Origin: Deltaproteobacteria bacterium CG11_big_fil_rev_8_21_14_0_20_47_16
GTDB taxonomy: Bacteria > UBA10199 > GCA-002796325 > 1-14-0-20-47-16
Assembly (NCBI GenBank): GCA_002796325.1
Contig: PCXA01000002.1
Span: 1-64,000 of the forward strand
Length of the DNA: 64,000 nucleotides
Reading direction: 5' to 3'
The notes beneath the pieces are model-generated. The model was not told where the DNA came from and searched no databases. It was given only the letters and a program-made list of their open reading frames with translations. Position 1 is the stretch's first letter. Each line of letters starts with the position of its first letter. This document shows positions 3,020-38,087 of the stretch, piece after piece. The position numbers and the translations under genes were made by a program.

Positions 3020-5134
3020 TTATTTAGGACACAGGACCATCCAATGGCAGTAGTCCACATCGCCGCAGCTATGGTTTTCGGGAACATCGGCATCATTGGT
3101 AGTGGATTCATTACGATTCTGGGTTGGCTTCAGCATTTGCTGGTGGAGATTGTCGCAACCTGAGAAATCAAATCCGCCCTCTCTATTGCGATATACGCAT
3201 CGCCCTGCCGGATCGCAACTACCAATGGTGGCCCAGCATTGCAGGTCAGGTGCCGCAACCTGTAGCCTGCATCCATCATCATAACAGACAACGCGTAACG
3301 GGTTGCATGGTGCGGGTGGCTGATCGTGAATACAAGCGCCATCAAAGTAGGCATCAATTGTATAGTCCTTCTTGTCTGCGACCCCACCTGTACTCAAATT
3401 AATCACCTGCACATCTGCTTTATTACCACGAACTGTTAACACATTACCATCAGTCACCATGCGAGCCACATTATCATCACCGTATGGCATAGGCTCGCCC
3501 CCCTCTGTTCCATTCAGCATCACAAGGGCTAACTTAGGATCATCTCCCTTCATCAAATAGACATTAATACAAACGTCATCATTCGTGTTGACTCTATAAA
3601 GGTACTGATCAGATGCCATCGCCTGCACACTTGTCGCGATACTATGATCAATGTCGCTATTACTGATATCGACTGCGTGATAATGTATTGAATTGGGCGT
3701 ATTTGAATTACGAAACGGCATAACACGCTTCATAAAAACTTCGGGCAAATCCTTCCCAAGTGCTGCTTGAATAGCCACATCCAGACGCTTGTTAAAGACC
3801 CCAAGTTCACTCCCGTTGAAGGCCCGAAAGAGTGGCATCAAGTAGGTTAAGTCACCATTGTTGGCATTTGCAAAAAATTCAACTGCATAATAGCTATACG
3901 AATAAGGATTATACTTTGCTAAAGTATGCGCCCAGTTCCGTGGAACGCTATGCAGGTATCTGTTCCGTAGTGCGTTTTCACTCCAACCGCCAGAGGCCAA
4001 CATACCCACCGCTGTTGCTGTACCCTCGCTAAGGGGGCTATTGCGATTCAAATTGACGGCATCATCAATACTTGCACAGTTATTACAAATGGCCGTCTGA
4101 ACTGCATGTGTCAACTCATGGTGGAACACGGTTCCTACGTTGCGTGCATACTCGTTATTAACCTGAGATTCGACAATTTTTAAAATTCCGGTTGCACTGG
4201 TAAAGCTGGATGTCCTTCCCTTTGTTAAATATGCCATGTTGTAGCGTACACTGGGGTCGTGTCTCCTCAAGACTGCGGGATCTGGCAATGTTGAAAGATT
4301 GGTTTGTCCCAAGCTCAATGCCGATAATTGTTGCATAACCAATTCATTCATATTCAGATGTGTCAGCAAATCTCGTGATGCATCTGTCAATCCATTCTGT
4401 ACCTGAGTCACCATTGAATTGGGATTTGCACCATCACAGGTCACTGCACCGTGATCCGATAACGCATCTGTGTCACAAACAACAGCCCATGGGTATTGTC
4501 CCATACCAACAGTATTGACAGCTTTCTGTGCACGACTTGATCTCTTGACCGATTTGGATTGTAAAAATGACTGCGGGTCAATTGTAACTACTTTGAGGCC
4601 TGTTCCCGCAACGCCAACAACATCCACAGCTCCTGCACTTGAATACAGACGAACTGTCAGGATGGCGCTATTCGGATCCAAATCCCCTAAAAGGGATTCC
4701 CACTCGTCATCTTCTGATCCATCTTTGTCATAAGAAATTTGTTCACCTCTCACACGTGCTTTTGCGTAAATTCCTTTACCCTCACTAATCGCTTTTCGCA
4801 TACTTTCAGCATCGAGTTGAATGGCAAGAAGGATTGGGTCAGCACTTTGTACAACACGTGCCTTTGAAAATTCTAAGGTCACAGGATCTGAAACCAGCTG
4901 CACATCACCGATATTCGACGTGTCTGCTTGATTTTCAGAAATTGTCACATCGACGTCTTCAGTAAACGAGCCCGTAGGAATTTGCAAAGAGGACTTGGTG
5001 TCTGTAAGTGTTGCTCCAGCATTTGCACTAACCGTCGACGTACTTCCTCCACCACTACAGGCACTACACAGCACCATAAGCAGCCCAACAAAGTAGAGTT
5101 GCTTCAACAGGAGACCGCTGTTATGTGGATTCAT
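3020..5134 (-). CDS. Large lipoprotein with a zinc-peptidase motif
   Basis: 704 residues. The N-terminus is a lipoprotein-like signal (hydrophobic run, then CSAC with Cys26 as likely lipidated residue, although -3 is an atypical Cys), followed by a Gly/Ser-rich linker. Residues about 38-100 (AGATLTDTKSSLQIPTGSF) resemble a ZU5-like beta domain. A gluzincin-type HExxH occurs as HHELTHAVQ (His339, Glu340, His343), with Glu370 in SPLSEGTATAVG as plausible third zinc ligand. The last 110 residues are rich in Cys and may form disulfides. The likely role is an outer-membrane or surface protease, substrate unknown. It shows no operon link with proB, which starts 47 bp downstream of its stop on the same strand. 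The family was not recognised beyond the motif. Confidence 0.7.
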   Translation of the reverse strand: MNPHNSGLLLKQLYFVGLLMVLCSACSGGGSTSTVSANAGATLTDTKSSLQIPTGSFTEDVDVTISENQADTSNIGDVQLVSDPVTLEFSKARVVQSADPILLAIQLDAESMRKAISEGKGIYAKARVRGEQISYDKDGSEDDEWESLLGDLDPNSAILTVRLYSSAGAVDVVGVAGTGLKVVTIDPQSFLQSKSVKRSSRAQKAVNTVGMGQYPWAVVCDTDALSDHGAVTCDGANPNSMVTQVQNGLTDASRDLLTHLNMNELVMQQLSALSLGQTNLSTLPDPAVLRRHDPSVRYNMAYLTKGRTSSFTSATGILKIVESQVNNEYARNVGTVFHHELTHAVQTAICNNCASIDDAVNLNRNSPLSEGTATAVGMLASGGWSENALRNRYLHSVPRNWAHTLAKYNPYSYSYYAVEFFANANNGDLTYLMPLFRAFNGSELGVFNKRLDVAIQAALGKDLPEVFMKRVMPFRNSNTPNSIHYHAVDISNSDIDHSIATSVQAMASDQYLYRVNTNDDVCINVYLMKGDDPKLALVMLNGTEGGEPMPYGDDNVARMVTDGNVLTVRGNKADVQVINLSTGGVADKKDYTIDAYFDGACIHDQPPAPCNPLRVVCYDDGCRLQVAAPDLQCWATIGSCDPAGRCVYRNREGGFDFSGCDNLHQQMLKPTQNRNESTTNDADVPENHSCGDVDYCHWMVLCPK

Positions 5135-5254: not shown

Positions 5255-5758
5255 CTAAACAAGATTAAGTTTTGGGGCACGCGAAATACTCATTTTAGGT
5301 GGTAATTTGGCAGATGCCCAAAGTGGCTGAAAGTAGCGCTGCATATGCTGCGCTAACTGTGGCACATCAAGGCCCATCATACGTGTTGTGTGATGTTGAA
5401 CAATCTCAACATAATGAAGTGCGCGTCTGGAAAGACGTTGGGCTGGTGGGATTTGCTTCAACTCCAACTTCAACAGTGCCGCCGTCAGTTGAATCAAGCC
5501 ATGAAGCAACGTACGCTCTAAATCTTCTTTGGGGAGTTTTAACCAAAGCGATTCCCACGCCTCATGCGCTTCATAGAAATATCCGGCGTGATAGAGATCA
5601 ACACCATATCGAAATGCATTGTGCTCTGTGAGCTGCGGCAAATGACCTTCATCAGGGTGCAAATTTTTTCCAGGAAGATATCGGTATGAAGGAAATTGCA
5701 AATCGCCACAAAAACGTGGCGCATCTTTCCAAATTGGTTCACCTATGACACATGACAT
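5255..5758 (-). CDS. DUF309 family protein
   Basis: The central segment GVDLYHAGYFYEAHEAWESLW followed by LLHGLIQLTAALLKL is the hallmark of the DUF309 helical family, with its conserved His/Glu/Trp (HEAWE..W). Biochemical function is unknown. The ATG at 5758 is preferred over an upstream in-frame TTG because a GGGAG lies upstream of it; spacing is somewhat long (11 nt). The N-terminal 45 residues contain conserved-looking Pro/Tyr and Cys residues outside the domain. It is divergent from the methyltransferase starting at 5812, so the short interval between them must hold both promoters. Confidence 0.8.
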   Translation of the reverse strand: MSCVIGEPIWKDAPRFCGDLQFPSYRYLPGKNLHPDEGHLPQLTEHNAFRYGVDLYHAGYFYEAHEAWESLWLKLPKEDLERTLLHGLIQLTAALLKLELKQIPPAQRLSRRALHYVEIVQHHTTRMMGLDVPQLAQHMQRYFQPLWASAKLPPKMSISRAPKLNLV

Positions 5759-5811
5759 GCTATGGATTGCTCCCACACAACCCAAACACTGTAAATAGGA
5801 ATTGAGACAAC

Positions 5812-6606
5812 ATGATAAAAATCAACAAATATGAACTCTATGAACATTCAGTCCAAGACCCAGATGTTGAAGCGCGCTTTATTAGGTCTCTCTATAAAAG
5901 AACATTTGGAAAACCTCCCCTTTACCTACGCGAAGACTTTTGCGGCACCTTTAAGCTCTGCTGTGAATGGGTCAAGATGGGCAAAGACAATAAAGCGGTT
6001 GGAGTTGATTTAGACAGAGAGCCAATTTCTTATGGTAAAAAGAACCATCTAGAACGCCTGCCCCCCCAGCAGCAATCCCGCATCAAGATTATCCGTGGCA
6101 ATGTGTTACATACACATCGCCCCATCGTGGATGTCGTCGGTGCATTCAATTTTTCTTACTACATATTTAAAACACGCGCAGATCTCGTGGCCTATTTTAA
6201 ATCGGCCTACAAATCAATTGGCAAGAAGGGTATGATCGTCGTGGATGCATTTGGTGGCACGGATGCCATGGACGCCAATGTTGAAAAACGTGTTGTCAAA
6301 GGTAAAGGCTATAAGTTCACCTATATTTGGGAGCAAAAAAATTACAATGTCATCCGCAATGAAGCTGAATTTAATATGCACTTCAAAATGTCAAACGGTC
6401 GCGTTATGCGGAATGCATTTCAGTATGATTGGCGAATGTGGACACTCCCCGAAATCCGAGAGGCAATGCGTGAGGCAGGATTCAAAAAAACTTCTGTTTA
6501 TTGGGAGGGTGTCGACAAACACGGACGTGGTAACGGACATTTTCGTGCCCTTGAATATGATGATGCATGTGAGGTCTGGATCGCTTATATTGTAGGAATC
6601 AAATGA
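5812..6606 (+). CDS. Class I SAM-dependent methyltransferase
   Basis: 264 residues with a Rossmann methyltransferase layout. LREDFCGTFKLCCEW (about 39-53) stands where motif I and the SAM loop are expected, VGVDLDREPISYG (63-75) gives the acidic motif II residue, and the stretch after IIRGNVL continues the fold (FNFSYYIF, GMIVVDAFGG). The substrate is unknown. It is first of three genes joined by 4-bp ATGA overlaps, ahead of a zinc metallopeptidase and an ATP-grasp ligase, so its substrate is probably a peptide, amino acid or other small amide shared with them (inference). A TAAATA at 5792-5797 may be the -10 box, giving a leader of only about 8 nt. No ribosome site is visible. Confidence 0.85.
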   Translation: MIKINKYELYEHSVQDPDVEARFIRSLYKRTFGKPPLYLREDFCGTFKLCCEWVKMGKDNKAVGVDLDREPISYGKKNHLERLPPQQQSRIKIIRGNVLHTHRPIVDVVGAFNFSYYIFKTRADLVAYFKSAYKSIGKKGMIVVDAFGGTDAMDANVEKRVVKGKGYKFTYIWEQKNYNVIRNEAEFNMHFKMSNGRVMRNAFQYDWRMWTLPEIREAMREAGFKKTSVYWEGVDKHGRGNGHFRALEYDDACEVWIAYIVGIK

Positions 6607-7637
6607 GCATCTTGGATAAAACAGATCTGACCGATGAAGAGCTCCTCAAGAAGCGTATCTGTGACTTGGGCATTTCTATTGCTGCACCTGAAATTGAACC
6701 CTGCATTCATGAACTTCATAAAGAGTTAGACGCCCACCAGCTCCTTTTCAAGCCAGAATGCTACCTTGCCGATGAATGGCTTTGCCCAGACCAAGAACCC
6801 GTCATTGGTATTCCCTTTTTCTTGGCTCACCCTCGACTTAAAAAATTGGAAATGAAGATGATGTACGATGTCGAAGGTGGCCATCGCGATCAATTTATGA
6901 AGTTGTTGCGCCATGAGGCGGGACACGCCATCAACTACGCATATGCTTTCTTCAGAAAGCCCAGCTGGAGAGACGTTTTTGGACGCTTTGGCAAGCCCTA
7001 CCCCGACAGCTACACCCATCGCCCCTACAGTCGAAAATATGTCCGACATCTGCAGAATGGCTATGCGCAATATCACCCTGACGAAGATTTTGCCGAGACA
7101 TTTGCCGTGTGGCTTACGCCTAATTCCAATTGGGAAGAGGAATATAAAGGCTGGCCAGCACTCAAAAAGCTGAAATTTGTGGACGATCTGATGAAGTCGG
7201 TTGCAAACTTGCCGGCACGCCATCCTAAGGGGAAAAAGTATTGGGAGGCACTCAAAATGAAGGCAACGCTTGAGCGTTTTTATGCACGAAAACGTAAAGC
7301 ACTCGCCGAAGACTTACCGGGATACTATGAGCCCGATTTAAAACGGATGTTTTCATCAGACGAATCCACTTCCAAGAATGAAAGTGCTGTTCGTTTCTTA
7401 CATCGCAGACGTAAAGATATTACAAGTGCGGTTGCGCGCTGGACTGGGCGACATAAGTACGCCATCAGCAAATTACTTGAACAGCTGATAGATACAGCCC
7501 GCCCTCTCAGCCTACATTTACGCAGTGATGAAGCGTCAGCGCAAATGGAAGTCACAGCATTTATGGTAGCCTGCATCATGAACTACCTCTACACCGGAAA
7601 ATTTAAACCACTCGTTAAAGGAAAACACACCCCATGA
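6603..7637 (+). CDS. Putative zinc-binding metallopeptidase
   Basis: 344 residues. A zinc-protease motif LRHEAGHAINYAYAF (His104, Glu105, His108) is followed about 55 residues later by HPDEDFAETFAVWLTP, where Glu161 or Glu165 can be the third ligand. This combination resembles the 'putative zinc-binding metallopeptidase' families (gluzincin fold). There is no signal peptide, so it should be cytoplasmic. The start overlaps the methyltransferase stop (ATGA), and its own stop overlaps the ATP-grasp start in the same way, which implies coordinated, possibly stoichiometric, synthesis. The C-terminal third is basic and helical. Substrate unknown; in this context it may process a peptide made or capped by the neighbours (inference). 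Confidence 0.75.
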   Translation: MSILDKTDLTDEELLKKRICDLGISIAAPEIEPCIHELHKELDAHQLLFKPECYLADEWLCPDQEPVIGIPFFLAHPRLKKLEMKMMYDVEGGHRDQFMKLLRHEAGHAINYAYAFFRKPSWRDVFGRFGKPYPDSYTHRPYSRKYVRHLQNGYAQYHPDEDFAETFAVWLTPNSNWEEEYKGWPALKKLKFVDDLMKSVANLPARHPKGKKYWEALKMKATLERFYARKRKALAEDLPGYYEPDLKRMFSSDESTSKNESAVRFLHRRRKDITSAVARWTGRHKYAISKLLEQLIDTARPLSLHLRSDEASAQMEVTAFMVACIMNYLYTGKFKPLVKGKHTP

Positions 7638-8647
7638 AGCCACTCAACATCATGGTGCTTTTTGATACGGCCGGCACCCCTCCCGAAAATCAGGATTTTA
7701 CTGAAGAACTCAAGACTGAGGAATGGGCAACTGAGGCCAACGTCATTAATGCACTAAAAAATTTGGGGCATACCGTTTCTATTGTGGGTGCTTACGACGA
7801 TATTAATGTCATTATTCATGGGATCCGCAAATACAAGCCCGACCTAGTGTTTAACCTTATGGAGCACTTTAATGGCCGCAGCGAGTATGACCGTAACATC
7901 CCAGCACTTCTGGAACTAATGGGTGTTCGCTATACAGGTGCTAACCCCACAACATTCATGATGTGCGGCAACAAGAGTTTGGCGAAGCAACTACTTGTGC
8001 ATCATCACGTGCGCACGCCCCACTTTTTTTTGGCCCGATACAAAAAGGCATTTTCGCGTCCCAAGCATCTTCAATTTCCACTCCTGGTAAAGCCGGTTCG
8101 CACAGATGCGTCATATGGTATTTCGCAGGCATCGTTTGTCGAAAACGACGAGGAAATGCAGACACGTATTCAATTTGTTCATGACACATTCAATCAGGGT
8201 GCTTTGGTTGAGGAGTATGCAACTGGACGCGAACTATATGTCAGCATTTTGGGCCAGAAAAAATTACTGGTCATGCCAGTCCGTGAATTATGTTTTGAAG
8301 AAGTCCCTGAAGGCGAACCTAAAATTGCGACGTATCGTGCCAAATGGGATGAGGATTACCGCAAGAAATGGGGTATTAAAAATCGCTTTGCCAATCCGAT
8401 TGCGGCAGAGGCCATGGACAAAATTATCAAGACCTGCAAGCGCGCCTATCAAGTCCTTCAGATTCAAAGTTACGCCCGTATTGACCTACGCTTGACCCCT
8501 GAGAATGAGGTTATCATCCTAGAAGTCAATCCCAATCCCTTTTTGGCGGACGGTGAAGATTTTGCTGAATCGGCAAAGAAGTCTGGAATGAGCTACGAAG
8601 ACCTCATCCAAAAAATTGCCAATATCGGTATGAATATGGAAGTATAA
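7634..8647 (+). CDS. ATP-grasp ligase, D-Ala-D-Ala ligase-like
   Basis: 337 residues with the ATP-grasp arrangement: FPLLVKPVRTDASYGIS (nucleotide-binding Lys153), LVEEYATGRELYVSI (Glu193/Glu194), YARIDLRLTPE and the metal-binding EVNPNPFLADG (about 297-307). The family joins a carboxylate to an amine through an acyl-phosphate. The N-terminal part (NALKNLGHTVSIVGAYDD, DLVFNLMEHFNG) resembles Ddl, but the usual murein cluster genes are absent nearby. It is third in the methyltransferase-peptidase-ligase operon, which argues for a dedicated peptide or amide product rather than cell-wall D-Ala-D-Ala. It ends 6 bp from the stop of the convergent SpeD-like gene. Confidence is high for the fold and low for the substrate. 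Confidence 0.85.
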   Translation: MKPLNIMVLFDTAGTPPENQDFTEELKTEEWATEANVINALKNLGHTVSIVGAYDDINVIIHGIRKYKPDLVFNLMEHFNGRSEYDRNIPALLELMGVRYTGANPTTFMMCGNKSLAKQLLVHHHVRTPHFFLARYKKAFSRPKHLQFPLLVKPVRTDASYGISQASFVENDEEMQTRIQFVHDTFNQGALVEEYATGRELYVSILGQKKLLVMPVRELCFEEVPEGEPKIATYRAKWDEDYRKKWGIKNRFANPIAAEAMDKIIKTCKRAYQVLQIQSYARIDLRLTPENEVIILEVNPNPFLADGEDFAESAKKSGMSYEDLIQKIANIGMNMEV

Positions 8648-8653
8648 CTGCTC

Positions 8654-9106
8654 TTAATAATCTTCGACTTCGATCAATTCTTCGTCTTCGCGCAAGCGAT
8701 AAACCAAGGCTGTTTCAATGTGCTTGGGCTTGAACACTTTTTTCAATTCATCATAAACCAAGTCGACATCAAAATTTTTGCAGCTGTAGCAATCAAATGT
8801 AAAGAATGGTTGGAAGATACGGCGTTGAATACCACGCGGTTTCTTTTTGCCATCCTTCTGACCTTTGGGAAATGTATGGATACTGATATGGCTTGTGGCA
8901 ATGATTGTGACACCAGTAATACCAATATCGGGATGATCTTCGGGGCGCACTTTATAAACAATTGGCAGACCCATTGCCTGCATCCCAATTTTATCAGGAA
9001 GTTTTTTGAGAAATGAATAAATGACGTCGTAAGACATCAACGCTTTTTTGTCGCAGCCAAATCCCGAACACATCAAGTGCGGCCAACCGCGGTAATCATC
9101 ACTCAT
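8654..9106 (-). CDS. SpeD-like pyruvoyl-dependent decarboxylase (AdoMetDC family)
   Basis: 150 residues. GVTIIATSHISIHTFP matches the self-cleavage/active-site region of bacterial S-adenosylmethionine decarboxylases. Ser72 would become the pyruvoyl group, His77 is the processing His, and FDCYSC (Cys106/Cys109) fits the catalytic Cys position. The residue before the pyruvoyl Ser is Thr instead of the common Glu (AESH becomes ATSH), and a basic insertion (KGQKDGKKKPRG) follows. Some SpeD homologues are known to have become ornithine or arginine decarboxylases, so AdoMet is not a safe substrate guess. It is convergent with the ATP-grasp operon; an agmatinase gene is 28 kb away. No speE is in the window. 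Confidence 0.75.
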   Translation of the reverse strand: MSDDYRGWPHLMCSGFGCDKKALMSYDVIYSFLKKLPDKIGMQAMGLPIVYKVRPEDHPDIGITGVTIIATSHISIHTFPKGQKDGKKKPRGIQRRIFQPFFTFDCYSCKNFDVDLVYDELKKVFKPKHIETALVYRLREDEELIEVEDY

Positions 9107-9215: not shown

Positions 9216-9686
9216 ATGATGATTATCTCAGGTGGACAAACGGGCGTTGACCGCGCGGCACTGGATGTTGCGATTCAATTGAAAATCCCACATGGCGGCT
9301 TTGCTCCCAAGGGACGCAAGGCAGAAGACGGGATCATTGATCAGCGCTATCATCTGACCGAACTCCCCACCACCAGCTACGAGGACAGAACCAAGGCCAA
9401 TGTCGATTGGGCAGATGCCACACTAATTCTTTACAAAGGTGTACTCGAAGGCGGCACACTCCTAACCTGGAACTATGCCAAGGCACGTCAAAAACCAATA
9501 CTCCATATCGACCTCGACGCACATTCATTCGACACCATCGTACTGCAATGCCAAAAATGGCTTGAGACAACTCAGCCTAAACGCCTTAATATCGCCGGAC
9601 CACGGGAGTCGAAATTCCCTGGAATTTATACAGATTCTTTGCAAATTCTCCTAAAAAGCTTAAAAAAACCCTTTCCTTTTTTATAG
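9216..9686 (+). CDS. Putative molybdenum carrier protein (SLOG-like fold)
   Basis: 156 residues. It opens with MIISGGQTGVDRAALDVA and continues with GFAPKGRKAEDG, ADATLILYKG and GGTLLTWNYAKARQKP. This is the conserved pattern of the 'putative molybdenum carrier' family, a Rossmann-like SLOG/LOG relative that binds nucleotide-type ligands. The biological role is not established. The gene is divergent from the speD-like gene, with 109 bp between them. It is followed by a good terminator (9712-9744), so it is probably monocistronic. No Shine-Dalgarno sequence is evident before the ATG at 9216. Confidence 0.85.
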   Translation: MMIISGGQTGVDRAALDVAIQLKIPHGGFAPKGRKAEDGIIDQRYHLTELPTTSYEDRTKANVDWADATLILYKGVLEGGTLLTWNYAKARQKPILHIDLDAHSFDTIVLQCQKWLETTQPKRLNIAGPRESKFPGIYTDSLQILLKSLKKPFPFL

Positions 9687-35757: not shown

Positions 35758-37215
35758 TTACTCCGCGGTTACAACAGTTAGATTGGTGGGCACAAGGTAG
35801 GTCTGCGCCACTTTTTTAACATCACTGTTCCCAATTGCCTCGATATGAGACGCATGGGTCAACACATAGCGCCAATCCCCAGTAATTGCCTGATAATCGA
35901 CAAGCAGTTCGGCCAAATCGTCGTTGGACTGCATTTCCCACAAAAAGTTAGAGGCCAGATTGTTGCGAGCAATCTTTAATTCTTTATCGGTAATCCCAGT
36001 ATCGCGCAGCGCTTGGAGCTCCGCCATAATGCGCTCTTCCAACTCCTTGGTGCTGTGGCCCTTAATGGGATAGGCCTCTATATAATAGAGGTTATCCAAA
36101 CGATTGCCGGGAATACCACTTGCACACGAGATATTTTGGGCAATCTTTTCATCGGTGACCAATTTCTTCTGAAGCCGTGATGTTGCACCCTGGCACAACG
36201 TGTAATCAATCACATCGAAGACATAGTCCGCATCACTGCCCACACGTGGTTTGTGAAAGGCCATCATGAGGAACGGTGCTGAATTGACATGTACGGTTGC
36301 ACGACGCGTTTCGGTCTGCACAGGTTCTTTGGGAAAATTGTCCTTGGGGCTGCGCGTTCCGGGCATGGATGCAAAGTATTTGTTAATGTACGCCTTGGCT
36401 TGCGCGATGTTCACGTCCCCCACTAGCGCACCATACATGCGATCGGGGTGGTAGAACTTTTGATGAAACGCGGTTGCATCGCCCACACTGAGGCTGCCAA
36501 TTTGTTCAGCGGTACCAATGGTCGTGTAGCGATAGGGGCTGGTTGAATAAGCGGTTAATAGCAGAGTTTCATAGGCCTTGCCTTGCGGACTATTTTCAAC
36601 CCGCATGCGCCGCTCTTCTTGCACCACATTGCGCTCAGAATAAAACTCGCGCAGAATGGGATCGTTCACCATACCCGCATACAGATACAGCCACAGACCC
36701 AGCTGATTGGCAGGCATGACACTGTGATATTGGGTCAAATCCTTGCTGGTAAAGGCATTGATATCGCGCGCACCGCTCCGTGATAGCAGTGTGAAGAGAT
36801 CATTGGAACGTTGGTATTGACTGGCCTGCTTCTGCAAGTCCTGCAGCTGCTTTAATGACTCGGGATTTGCTGTTTTAACCCAATCGTCCCCCACCACCTG
36901 GATCTTTTTGAGCAGTGGTGCTTCTTTATTATAGTCAGTGGTGCCGATTTCATGGGTTCCCTTGAATGCCATGTGCTCAAACATGTGCGCCAGACCGATA
37001 TGGGGTGGCGTTTCTTCGATGCCACCGACCTTGACGGCAATAGCACCTGCGAAAATGTTTGGAGTTGGACGACGCACCAAAAGCCACGTCATGCCATTCG
37101 GGAGCCGATAGACTGTTACATTCTTGGCAATATCCCACTGTGCAGTGGCAGTCGTTGAAATACAAAATATTGAAACGCAGATGAGCACCTTGAGCATCGC
37201 CAGGGATTTGCTCAT
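35758..37215 (-). CDS. Periplasmic M16 zinc protease
   Basis: About 485 residues from the ATG at 37215, which overlaps the agmatinase stop by one base (TAATG) and has AAGGGA 8 nt upstream. Signal peptide MLKVLICVSIFCISTTATA. The inverted zinc motif is HMFEH in GLAHMFEHMAFKGT, with the downstream Glu expected in the helix around REFYSERNVVQEERRMRVEN. It pairs with the zinc-less homologue downstream, a two-subunit arrangement known from M16B proteases. It digests small peptides in the periplasm or processes a specific protein. Association with agmatinase is probably only transcriptional. Confidence 0.9.
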   Translation of the reverse strand: MSKSLAMLKVLICVSIFCISTTATAQWDIAKNVTVYRLPNGMTWLLVRRPTPNIFAGAIAVKVGGIEETPPHIGLAHMFEHMAFKGTHEIGTTDYNKEAPLLKKIQVVGDDWVKTANPESLKQLQDLQKQASQYQRSNDLFTLLSRSGARDINAFTSKDLTQYHSVMPANQLGLWLYLYAGMVNDPILREFYSERNVVQEERRMRVENSPQGKAYETLLLTAYSTSPYRYTTIGTAEQIGSLSVGDATAFHQKFYHPDRMYGALVGDVNIAQAKAYINKYFASMPGTRSPKDNFPKEPVQTETRRATVHVNSAPFLMMAFHKPRVGSDADYVFDVIDYTLCQGATSRLQKKLVTDEKIAQNISCASGIPGNRLDNLYYIEAYPIKGHSTKELEERIMAELQALRDTGITDKELKIARNNLASNFLWEMQSNDDLAELLVDYQAITGDWRYVLTHASHIEAIGNSDVKKVAQTYLVPTNLTVVTAE

Positions 37216-38087
37216 TAAATCAGTCCCTTCGCGCGTGCCCAATACCCAATGGACTTATACACCAAACGCGCAACCGCAAAGTCTGAGGCAGATTGTTCGG
37301 GATTGGGTGCCAGTTCCACAAAGTCCATGCCCACGACATTGCAACGCTCGCATAGCGCTTTGATGAAGTGCGTGGATTGCTGCCATGTGAGTCCACCGGG
37401 TTCCGGTGTGCCGGTTGCGGGAATGAGGCTGGGATCAATGCCATCGACATCGAATGTTAAGAATACGGGGCCTTTGATACCATCGAGTGCGCGGTCAATC
37501 CACTTCTCTTGGGCATCGAGTTCGTGTGCGAAGATGCGTTTGAGTTTCTTTTCGCGGATGAGCACGGCTTCTTCTTCACAGATTGCGCGAATGCCCACAC
37601 CCACTGATGGAATACCCAAGTCATCCACACGCCGCATAATACACGCATGACTCCATGGTGTTTCGTGATAGCTCGTGCGCAGATCACCATGCGCATCGAC
37701 TTGAACAACAGTGAGATCTGGATACGCACGATGTGCAGCCATGATGCAACCCGTGCTTAAGCTGTGCTCGCCACCTAATATAATAGGTAGTTTATTATCG
37801 GCGTAGAACTTGCCCACAGTTGCTGCGATTTGATTGATGGCCTCTTCACCCGTCTTGCCTGCGAAGGCAATGGGGTCCGCACTGAAGATGCCCGCCTTAT
37901 AGGGCTCGGTCCAAAGCTCTTCGTCAAAGTATTCGACTTGACGTGATGCCTCGAGAATGGCTGCAGGGCCATTGGATGTACCCTGGCCATAGCTGGTGGT
38001 GTGCTCATAGGGACACGGCACAATCACCACATTCGCATTGTTGTAGAGAGAGAACTCTTTGGGGATGTCGTAATAGATGTTTGTCAT
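37215..38087 (-). CDS. speB: Agmatinase/arginase-family ureohydrolase
   Basis: 290 residues. Binuclear manganese motifs: LGGEHSLSTG, VVQVDAHGDLRTSYHETPWSHA, and FLTFDVDGIDPSLIPATGTPEPGGLTW. These fit agmatinase better than arginase, giving putrescine plus urea from agmatine, but substrate choice within the family cannot be read from motifs alone. It is first gene of an operon with the two M16 peptidases. A TATAAC (38114-38109, minus strand) lies upstream without a convincing -35. No ribosome site is seen at the ATG. A putrescine source would connect with the SpeD-like gene at 8654. Confidence 0.88.
   Translation of the reverse strand: MTNIYYDIPKEFSLYNNANVVIVPCPYEHTTSYGQGTSNGPAAILEASRQVEYFDEELWTEPYKAGIFSADPIAFAGKTGEEAINQIAATVGKFYADNKLPIILGGEHSLSTGCIMAAHRAYPDLTVVQVDAHGDLRTSYHETPWSHACIMRRVDDLGIPSVGVGIRAICEEEAVLIREKKLKRIFAHELDAQEKWIDRALDGIKGPVFLTFDVDGIDPSLIPATGTPEPGGLTWQQSTHFIKALCERCNVVGMDFVELAPNPEQSASDFAVARLVYKSIGYWARAKGLI

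Follow-up and report, generated by a model that had tools for sequence, protein, structure and literature searches.

A zinc-peptidase-like and ATP-grasp ligase gene pair conserved across phyla, with a local methyltransferase and a convergent SpeD homologue in a Deltaproteobacteria bacterium

In this study, we examined the first 64,000 nucleotides of contig PCXA01000002.1 of Deltaproteobacteria bacterium CG11_big_fil_rev_8_21_14_0_20_47_16, a stretch referred to here as the window. Genes for a methyltransferase-like protein (MT), a zinc-peptidase-like protein (PEP) and an ATP-grasp ligase (GRASP) follow one another in it and face the gene of a SpeD homologue. We found that the biological unit is the PEP-GRASP pair, not the four genes. 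PEP and GRASP may form a cytosolic amide synthetase/peptidase pair that acts on one small peptide-like compound, with MT recruited here and the SpeD homologue separate, and we give this reading an even chance of being correct. Gene order, conservation, catalytic motifs and genome content were observed directly; from them we infer all reactions and substrates.

The pair was examined at 88 PEP loci, the window locus and 87 others, 80 of which came from named genomes chosen non-randomly as the best matches to six peptide patterns. Neighbour distances were counted after trimming start codons. GRASP adjoined PEP on the same strand in 81/88 loci, with the exact 4-bp overlap in 36, and the remaining spacings were mostly below 30 bp and nearly all below 200 bp. 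Among the seven loci without an adjacent GRASP, L036 and L070 are cut by contig ends, and L002 and L010 come from one genome. GRASP of the L007 genome lies on a different contig from PEP. By NCBI label, the pair was present in 52/55 Omnitrophota and 10/10 Pseudomonadota loci, the cultured Rudaea among the latter, and in Elusimicrobiota (3), Kiritimatiellota (2), Auribacterota (2), Lentisphaerota (1), one metagenome-assembled genome (MAG) labelled Clostridia and the class of the window itself. Many pair-bearing genomes are MAGs, for which individual taxon labels may be wrong but the overall spread is not. These results indicate that PEP and GRASP co-occur in at least six named phyla. When 60 related genomes were compared, PEP was found in 8, a close GRASP (E below 1e-100) in 9, and 6 genomes had both. 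Fisher's test, which ignores phylogeny, gave p = 4e-5, and 2e-4 when the source genome was left out. The pairwise distances of PEP and GRASP were correlated (r = 0.84, 67 pairs), to which shared ancestry contributes. A sequence-only reading of the window had joined all four genes in one pathway and had set co-occurrence beyond close relatives as the test beforehand. The PEP-GRASP part of that proposal stood, whereas the rest did not, as phmmer placed neither an MT nor a SpeD homologue beside PEP at any of the 87 other loci. The AdoMetDC motif was found in none of them either (807 kb).

The features of the locus are listed below.

5812-6606, + strand: MT, 264 residues, class I S-adenosylmethionine methyltransferase-like, first gene of the operon, with weak Pfam methyltransferase matches
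6603-6606, + strand: ATGA stop/start overlap of MT and PEP, from the sequence
6603-7637, + strand: PEP, 344 residues, zinc-peptidase-like, related to Peptidase_Mx but diverged from it
6912-6926, + strand: HEAGH zinc-binding motif of PEP, residues 104-108, from the sequence and the alignment of 71 homologues
7080-7097, + strand: DEDFAE motif of PEP, residues 160-165, probable third zinc ligand, from the sequence and the same alignment
7634-7637, + strand: ATGA stop/start overlap of PEP and GRASP, identical 4-bp overlap in 36/81 homologous pairs
7634-8647, + strand: GRASP, 337 residues, ATP-grasp carboxylate-amine ligase, D-Ala-D-Ala ligase (Ddl) fold
8654-9106, - strand: SpeD/AdoMetDC homologue, 150 residues, pyruvoyl decarboxylase family, convergent neighbour, predicted arginine decarboxylase
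37218-38087, - strand: agmatinase (SpeB), TIGR01230, probable next enzyme after the SpeD homologue

The joining of three genes by ATGA overlaps, described earlier, was seen at both positions, and the SpeD-like gene does end 6 bp away, as a 6-bp spacer (8648-8653) separates the convergent stop codons of GRASP and the SpeD homologue. Since it is convergent to the operon, the SpeD gene cannot share the MT-PEP-GRASP transcript. A promoter and terminator scan of the locus gave nothing beyond chance expectation.

PEP is classed, from its residues, as a putative divergent HExxH gluzincin, a relative of Peptidase_Mx (PF15887) rather than a member. The window protein matched PF15887 at 1.2e-4 with 22 bits, below the gathering cut-off of 27, and the same model was matched by 71/71 members of the PEP family at E<=0.01 (best 2.2e-9). 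Identity to relatives from other phyla was 41-53% along the full length. Across the 71 homologues, H104, E105, G107, H108, D160, E161, D162, F163 and E165 were invariant, so that PEP has both the HExxH motif and the conserved downstream acidic ligand (E161/E165) of the gluzincin type. Peptidase_Mx and Peptidase_Mx1 (PF15890), which are putative zinc metallopeptidases, share HExxH and a second acidic motif with PEP, whereas PEP has N-terminal and C-terminal regions of its own and a GRASP partner. The AlphaFold model of PEP had a pLDDT of 88. Its Foldseek matches, at E 0.4 or worse, were confined to the generic HExxH core that unrelated gluzincins have, and they were rejected as a guide to function. 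PEP was absent from the viral contigs and plasmids searched.

GRASP matched Dala_Dala_lig_C (PF07478) at 1.5e-28, and its identity to relatives in other phyla was full-length and similar to that of PEP. Its AlphaFold model (pLDDT 93) matched Ddl structures along its length in Foldseek (E about 1e-20 to 6e-25). K114, K153, E193, D284, E297 and N299 were invariant in the GRASP family and R282 was conserved. GRASP thus shares with Ddl the fold, the ATP-grasp core, the Lys, Glu, Asp and Asn positions that serve ATP and Mg, and the RxD-motif Arg. It differs in being about 20% identical to solved Ddl and in scoring under every NCBIfam Ddl cut-off, with 130.5 bits against 243 and lower scores still for the other Ddl and Van models. 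GRASP also carries a family-specific ATYxAKWD..YR.KWG segment. Instead of the Ser-Leu pair that contacts the second D-Ala in Ddl, GRASP has two acidic residues, which are D308/E309 in >=90% of the family and E308/D309 in the window protein. The genome holds a separate, true Ddl elsewhere, with murB-type and ftsQ/ftsA-type neighbours as named from their sequences. From these features we infer that GRASP is a Ddl-type ligase of altered specificity. Judged from the alignment, its acceptor is perhaps cationic, given the acidic site, into which a cationic amine could fit.

We considered cell-wall editing of the VanA/VanX type, in which GRASP would make an alternative D-Ala-X ending and PEP would destroy the normal dipeptide. 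GRASP is Ddl-like, its NCBIfam matches include D-Ala-D-Ser and D-Lac ligases, and an adjoining zinc hydrolase recalls VanX. However, the scores far under all Ddl and Van cut-offs, the loss of the Ser-Leu pair, the normal Ddl in the genome and the lack of a conserved cell-wall gene adjoining the pair make this editing improbable. A PEP-GRASP gene fusion was sought in the long GRASP frames (L009, L052, L074 and others), and these proved to be an upstream open frame, as no open reading frame (ORF) matched both proteins. In a same-class genome that also carries PEP-GRASP, a 741-residue protein (L133:4784-7006) has a tandem pair of Ddl-type ATP-grasp domains.

An ATP-grasp enzyme and a peptidase, here with a methyltransferase, are also typical gene content for a ribosomally synthesised and post-translationally modified peptide (RiPP) of the graspetide type, in which GRASP would crosslink a precursor peptide and PEP would remove its leader. 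Within 700 bp of the pairs, across several phyla, no conserved small ORF was found except fragments of larger genes and a clade-specific 84-residue protein (5 loci). Since no small ORF is conserved beside the pair, a precursor is unlikely; in addition, GRASP is of the Ddl type. We consider a RiPP pathway highly improbable.

MT matched only generic methyltransferase Pfam domains, all below cut-off. Three homologues with 36-44% identity to it, from G017, G013 and G051, sit among unrelated genes without PEP or GRASP. Apart from the source genome, no same-class genome carries MT and PEP together, and the nearest pair-bearing relative, a genome of the same order (G002), has neither MT nor a SpeD homologue. 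MT is a local addition outside the conserved core. An overlap of the same type links MT to the pair, so that co-expression of MT with the pair is likely here. Two proteins from genomes of the window's class, L132:4055-5767 (G022) and L134:4611-6485 (G013), are fusions that begin with a class I methyltransferase and continue with an ATP-grasp domain of the Ddl type. They were rejected as evidence on MT and GRASP themselves, as the ATP-grasp belongs to a sister family (E about 1e-49) and the methyltransferase is non-homologous to MT. The fusions show that the combination of methyltransferase and ATP-grasp recurs, which lends weak support to the MT link.

The SpeD homologue matched AdoMet_dc (PF02675) at 2.4e-17 with 63.6 bits (cut-off 25) and TIGR03330 with 44.9 bits, under the cut-off of 75.65. 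It is the sole AdoMet_dc protein in the genome, which is 99.75% complete. Ser72, His77 and Cys109 align with the pyruvoyl-processing residues S63, H68 and C83. Lys81 aligns where the S-adenosylmethionine decarboxylase (AdoMetDC) of T. maritima has Glu72 after HTWP, a residue presumably involved in ribose binding, and the protein lacks this AdoMetDC feature. No match to the spermidine synthase SpeE (PF01564) was found in the genome, while the same search was positive in 11/14 controls. The agmatinase scored 227.7 bits against TIGR01230, above the cut-off of 174.3, and a deoxyhypusine synthase (DHS) homologue is encoded elsewhere. The only pyridoxal phosphate-dependent ornithine/arginine/diaminopimelate decarboxylase-family (PF02784) protein is LysA, while an arginine decarboxylase of the aspartate-aminotransferase fold was not searched for. 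HSS/CASDH (PF03435) gave weak matches only, and the best of those examined were oxidoreductase-like proteins.

Li et al. 2023 (PMC10407285) showed that, where SpeE is missing, a SpeD homologue may decarboxylate arginine (SpeDA) or ornithine (SpeDC), and that speB and speY often accompany SpeDA genes. The genome examined here, with a SpeD homologue, SpeB and a SpeY-like gene but without SpeE, matches the SpeDA-SpeB-SpeY gene sets of that report. Compared with the neofunctionalised SpeD described there, the window protein keeps the catalytic Ser, His and Cys but carries an insert of some 17 extra residues and only one (Thr) of the four SpeDC-diagnostic residues Gln/Thr/Phe/Tyr, whose positions were deduced from the text of PMC10407285 and an alignment. 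Because SpeE was not found and agmatinase and a DHS homologue are present, we place the SpeD homologue tentatively in a route from arginine through agmatine and putrescine to homospermidine. By genome content, it is most likely a SpeDA-type arginine decarboxylase of this route and not an operon partner. The homologues of L149, L152, L153 and L156 have all four SpeDC residues. The Omnitrophota homologues of L150, L151, L154 and L155, unlike these SpeDC-type proteins, have an unusual ESSIVIHTLTPKNF...CCK(C/A)FD signature and are possibly another neofunctionalised group. No SpeD was found on plasmids, viral contigs held no confirmed relative and phages gave one distant match.

We examined whether SpeD could still supply an amine for conjugation to an amino acid or peptide by GRASP, methylation by MT and trimming by PEP, as the sequence-only reading had proposed. 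The four genes lie close together in one genome, the acidic acceptor site of GRASP could suit a cationic amine, and a SpeD homologue was present somewhere in 16/20 other pair-bearing genomes. However, none was seen in the remaining 4/20, SpeD is common generally (8/14 controls), and the gene is convergent and beside PEP at none of the 87 other loci. SpeD regions from Rudaea and a relative (G062 and G076), considered as cases of SpeD near the pair, contain neither PEP nor GRASP. MT is likewise beside none of the 87 loci, is absent from same-class PEP genomes and stands alone elsewhere, and the genome offers a complete alternative use for SpeD as a polyamine decarboxylase. The four-gene pathway is therefore unsupported and improbable. 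The earlier interpretation is partly supported overall, as amide ligation and peptide cleavage remain reasonable chemistry for the PEP-GRASP pair, of which a polyamine conjugate would be a possible product.

For the amide synthetase/peptidase pair that we favour, the following steps are proposed. GRASP, by its fold and retained ATP-grasp residues, would use ATP to activate a carboxylate to an acyl phosphate and then join it to an amine. Because the pairing is conserved and the HExxH...DExxAE site is intact, PEP is predicted to act as a cytosolic zinc hydrolase that cuts this same compound at an amide or peptide bond, trimming a precursor or recycling the product. MT, recruited into this operon, probably methylates the precursor or product. 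Apart from this, the SpeD homologue would act as a pyruvoyl arginine decarboxylase that supplies agmatine to SpeB, followed by a DHS-like homospermidine enzyme (SpeY).

Several observations weigh against these proposals. With the PEP model, Foldseek found no confident structural neighbour in the PDB (best E 0.4), and PEP could cleave proteins. GRASP occurs without PEP in G006, G012 and G029, and PEP without a close GRASP in G022 and G043, which suggests that each can work alone or with a different partner. The link of MT to the pair was seen in one genome only. For the polyamine route, the DHS homologue scored under the NCBIfam cut-offs. The SpeD homologue retains the Pro of HTFP, which, if it is the same Pro, is not conserved in SpeDA according to Li et al. 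(PMC10407285).

A broader proposal, which we regard as rather unlikely, is that PEP-GRASP represents a widespread, as yet undescribed cycle in which a synthetase and an amidase make and cleave a new class of cytosolic amides, with lineage-specific tailoring such as methylation. The product would then possibly be a cationic amine carrying an amino acid or short peptide. A comparable arrangement, with one amide shared by a ligase and a hydrolase, is that of glutathionylspermidine synthetase/amidase and of the NAGGN operon. Their hydrolase families are unrelated to PEP, and the likeness to PEP-GRASP is in logic only. Iyer et al. in 2009 reportedly predicted operons of ATP-grasp enzymes with peptidases, and PEP-GRASP may already be listed in that amidoligase survey. 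The Anbu operon is an ATP-grasp/peptidase set for which protein tagging was proposed (PMC6376114). Both combine an amide-forming enzyme with a hydrolase for a proposed peptide synthesis or tagging, as here, but they use other ATP-grasp and peptidase families, and no alpha-E, transglutaminase or proteasome-like gene is present in our locus.

Protein tagging is the main rival of the small-compound reading. In that case, GRASP would modify a protein carboxylate with an amino acid or amine, which PEP would take off again. A tight ligase and hydrolase pair is consistent with this, as in the idea put forward for the Anbu operon (PMC6376114), and as no conserved gene for a small peptide substrate adjoins the pair, a housekeeping protein from another part of the genome could be the target. 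However, GRASP is a single compact Ddl-type enzyme, a small-molecule class in all solved relatives found, and no extra protein-binding domain is visible in it. We therefore consider tagging a minority possibility, and the pair is treated here as acting on a small compound.

Conservation of the unit extends over candidate phyla and cultured Gammaproteobacteria (Rudaea), and neither protein has been given a specific family name or function. With two soluble enzymes, predictable chemistry and a cultured host, the unit is small and tractable. If its product were identified, several poorly known phyla would gain a new amide metabolite or tag in their physiology. The polyamine genes illustrate that a gene adjacent by chance may point to the wrong pathway.

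Neighbours outside the pair varied, and the commonest were clade-specific: a CBM_11 lipoprotein (14 loci), PfkB kinases, Memo/AMMECR1 and SpoU. In Omnitrophota (L012, L015, L017, L020, L031, L049 and others), the pair was often flanked by a CBM_11-type lipoprotein and a fused Memo/AMMECR1 protein, with NadA, NifS/NifU and MnmA-like genes upstream at the same loci. Among the PADLOC anti-phage models, PEP, GRASP and the SpeD homologue had no match, and MT had a weak partial match to the methyltransferase core only (6.9e-5). In the window, a DUF309 protein (5258-5785, - strand) is divergent from the operon, with the two start codons near each other. A circularly permuted YpsA SLOG-family protein (9216-9683, + strand; PF12694, 4.1e-52) adjoins the SpeD homologue and is divergent from it. 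The agmatinase gene overlaps an M16 zinc peptidase gene (35761-37242, - strand). A predicted 704-residue lipoprotein (3020-5134, - strand), which contains the motif HHELTHAVQ and belongs to no Pfam family, is a possible further zinc metallopeptidase.

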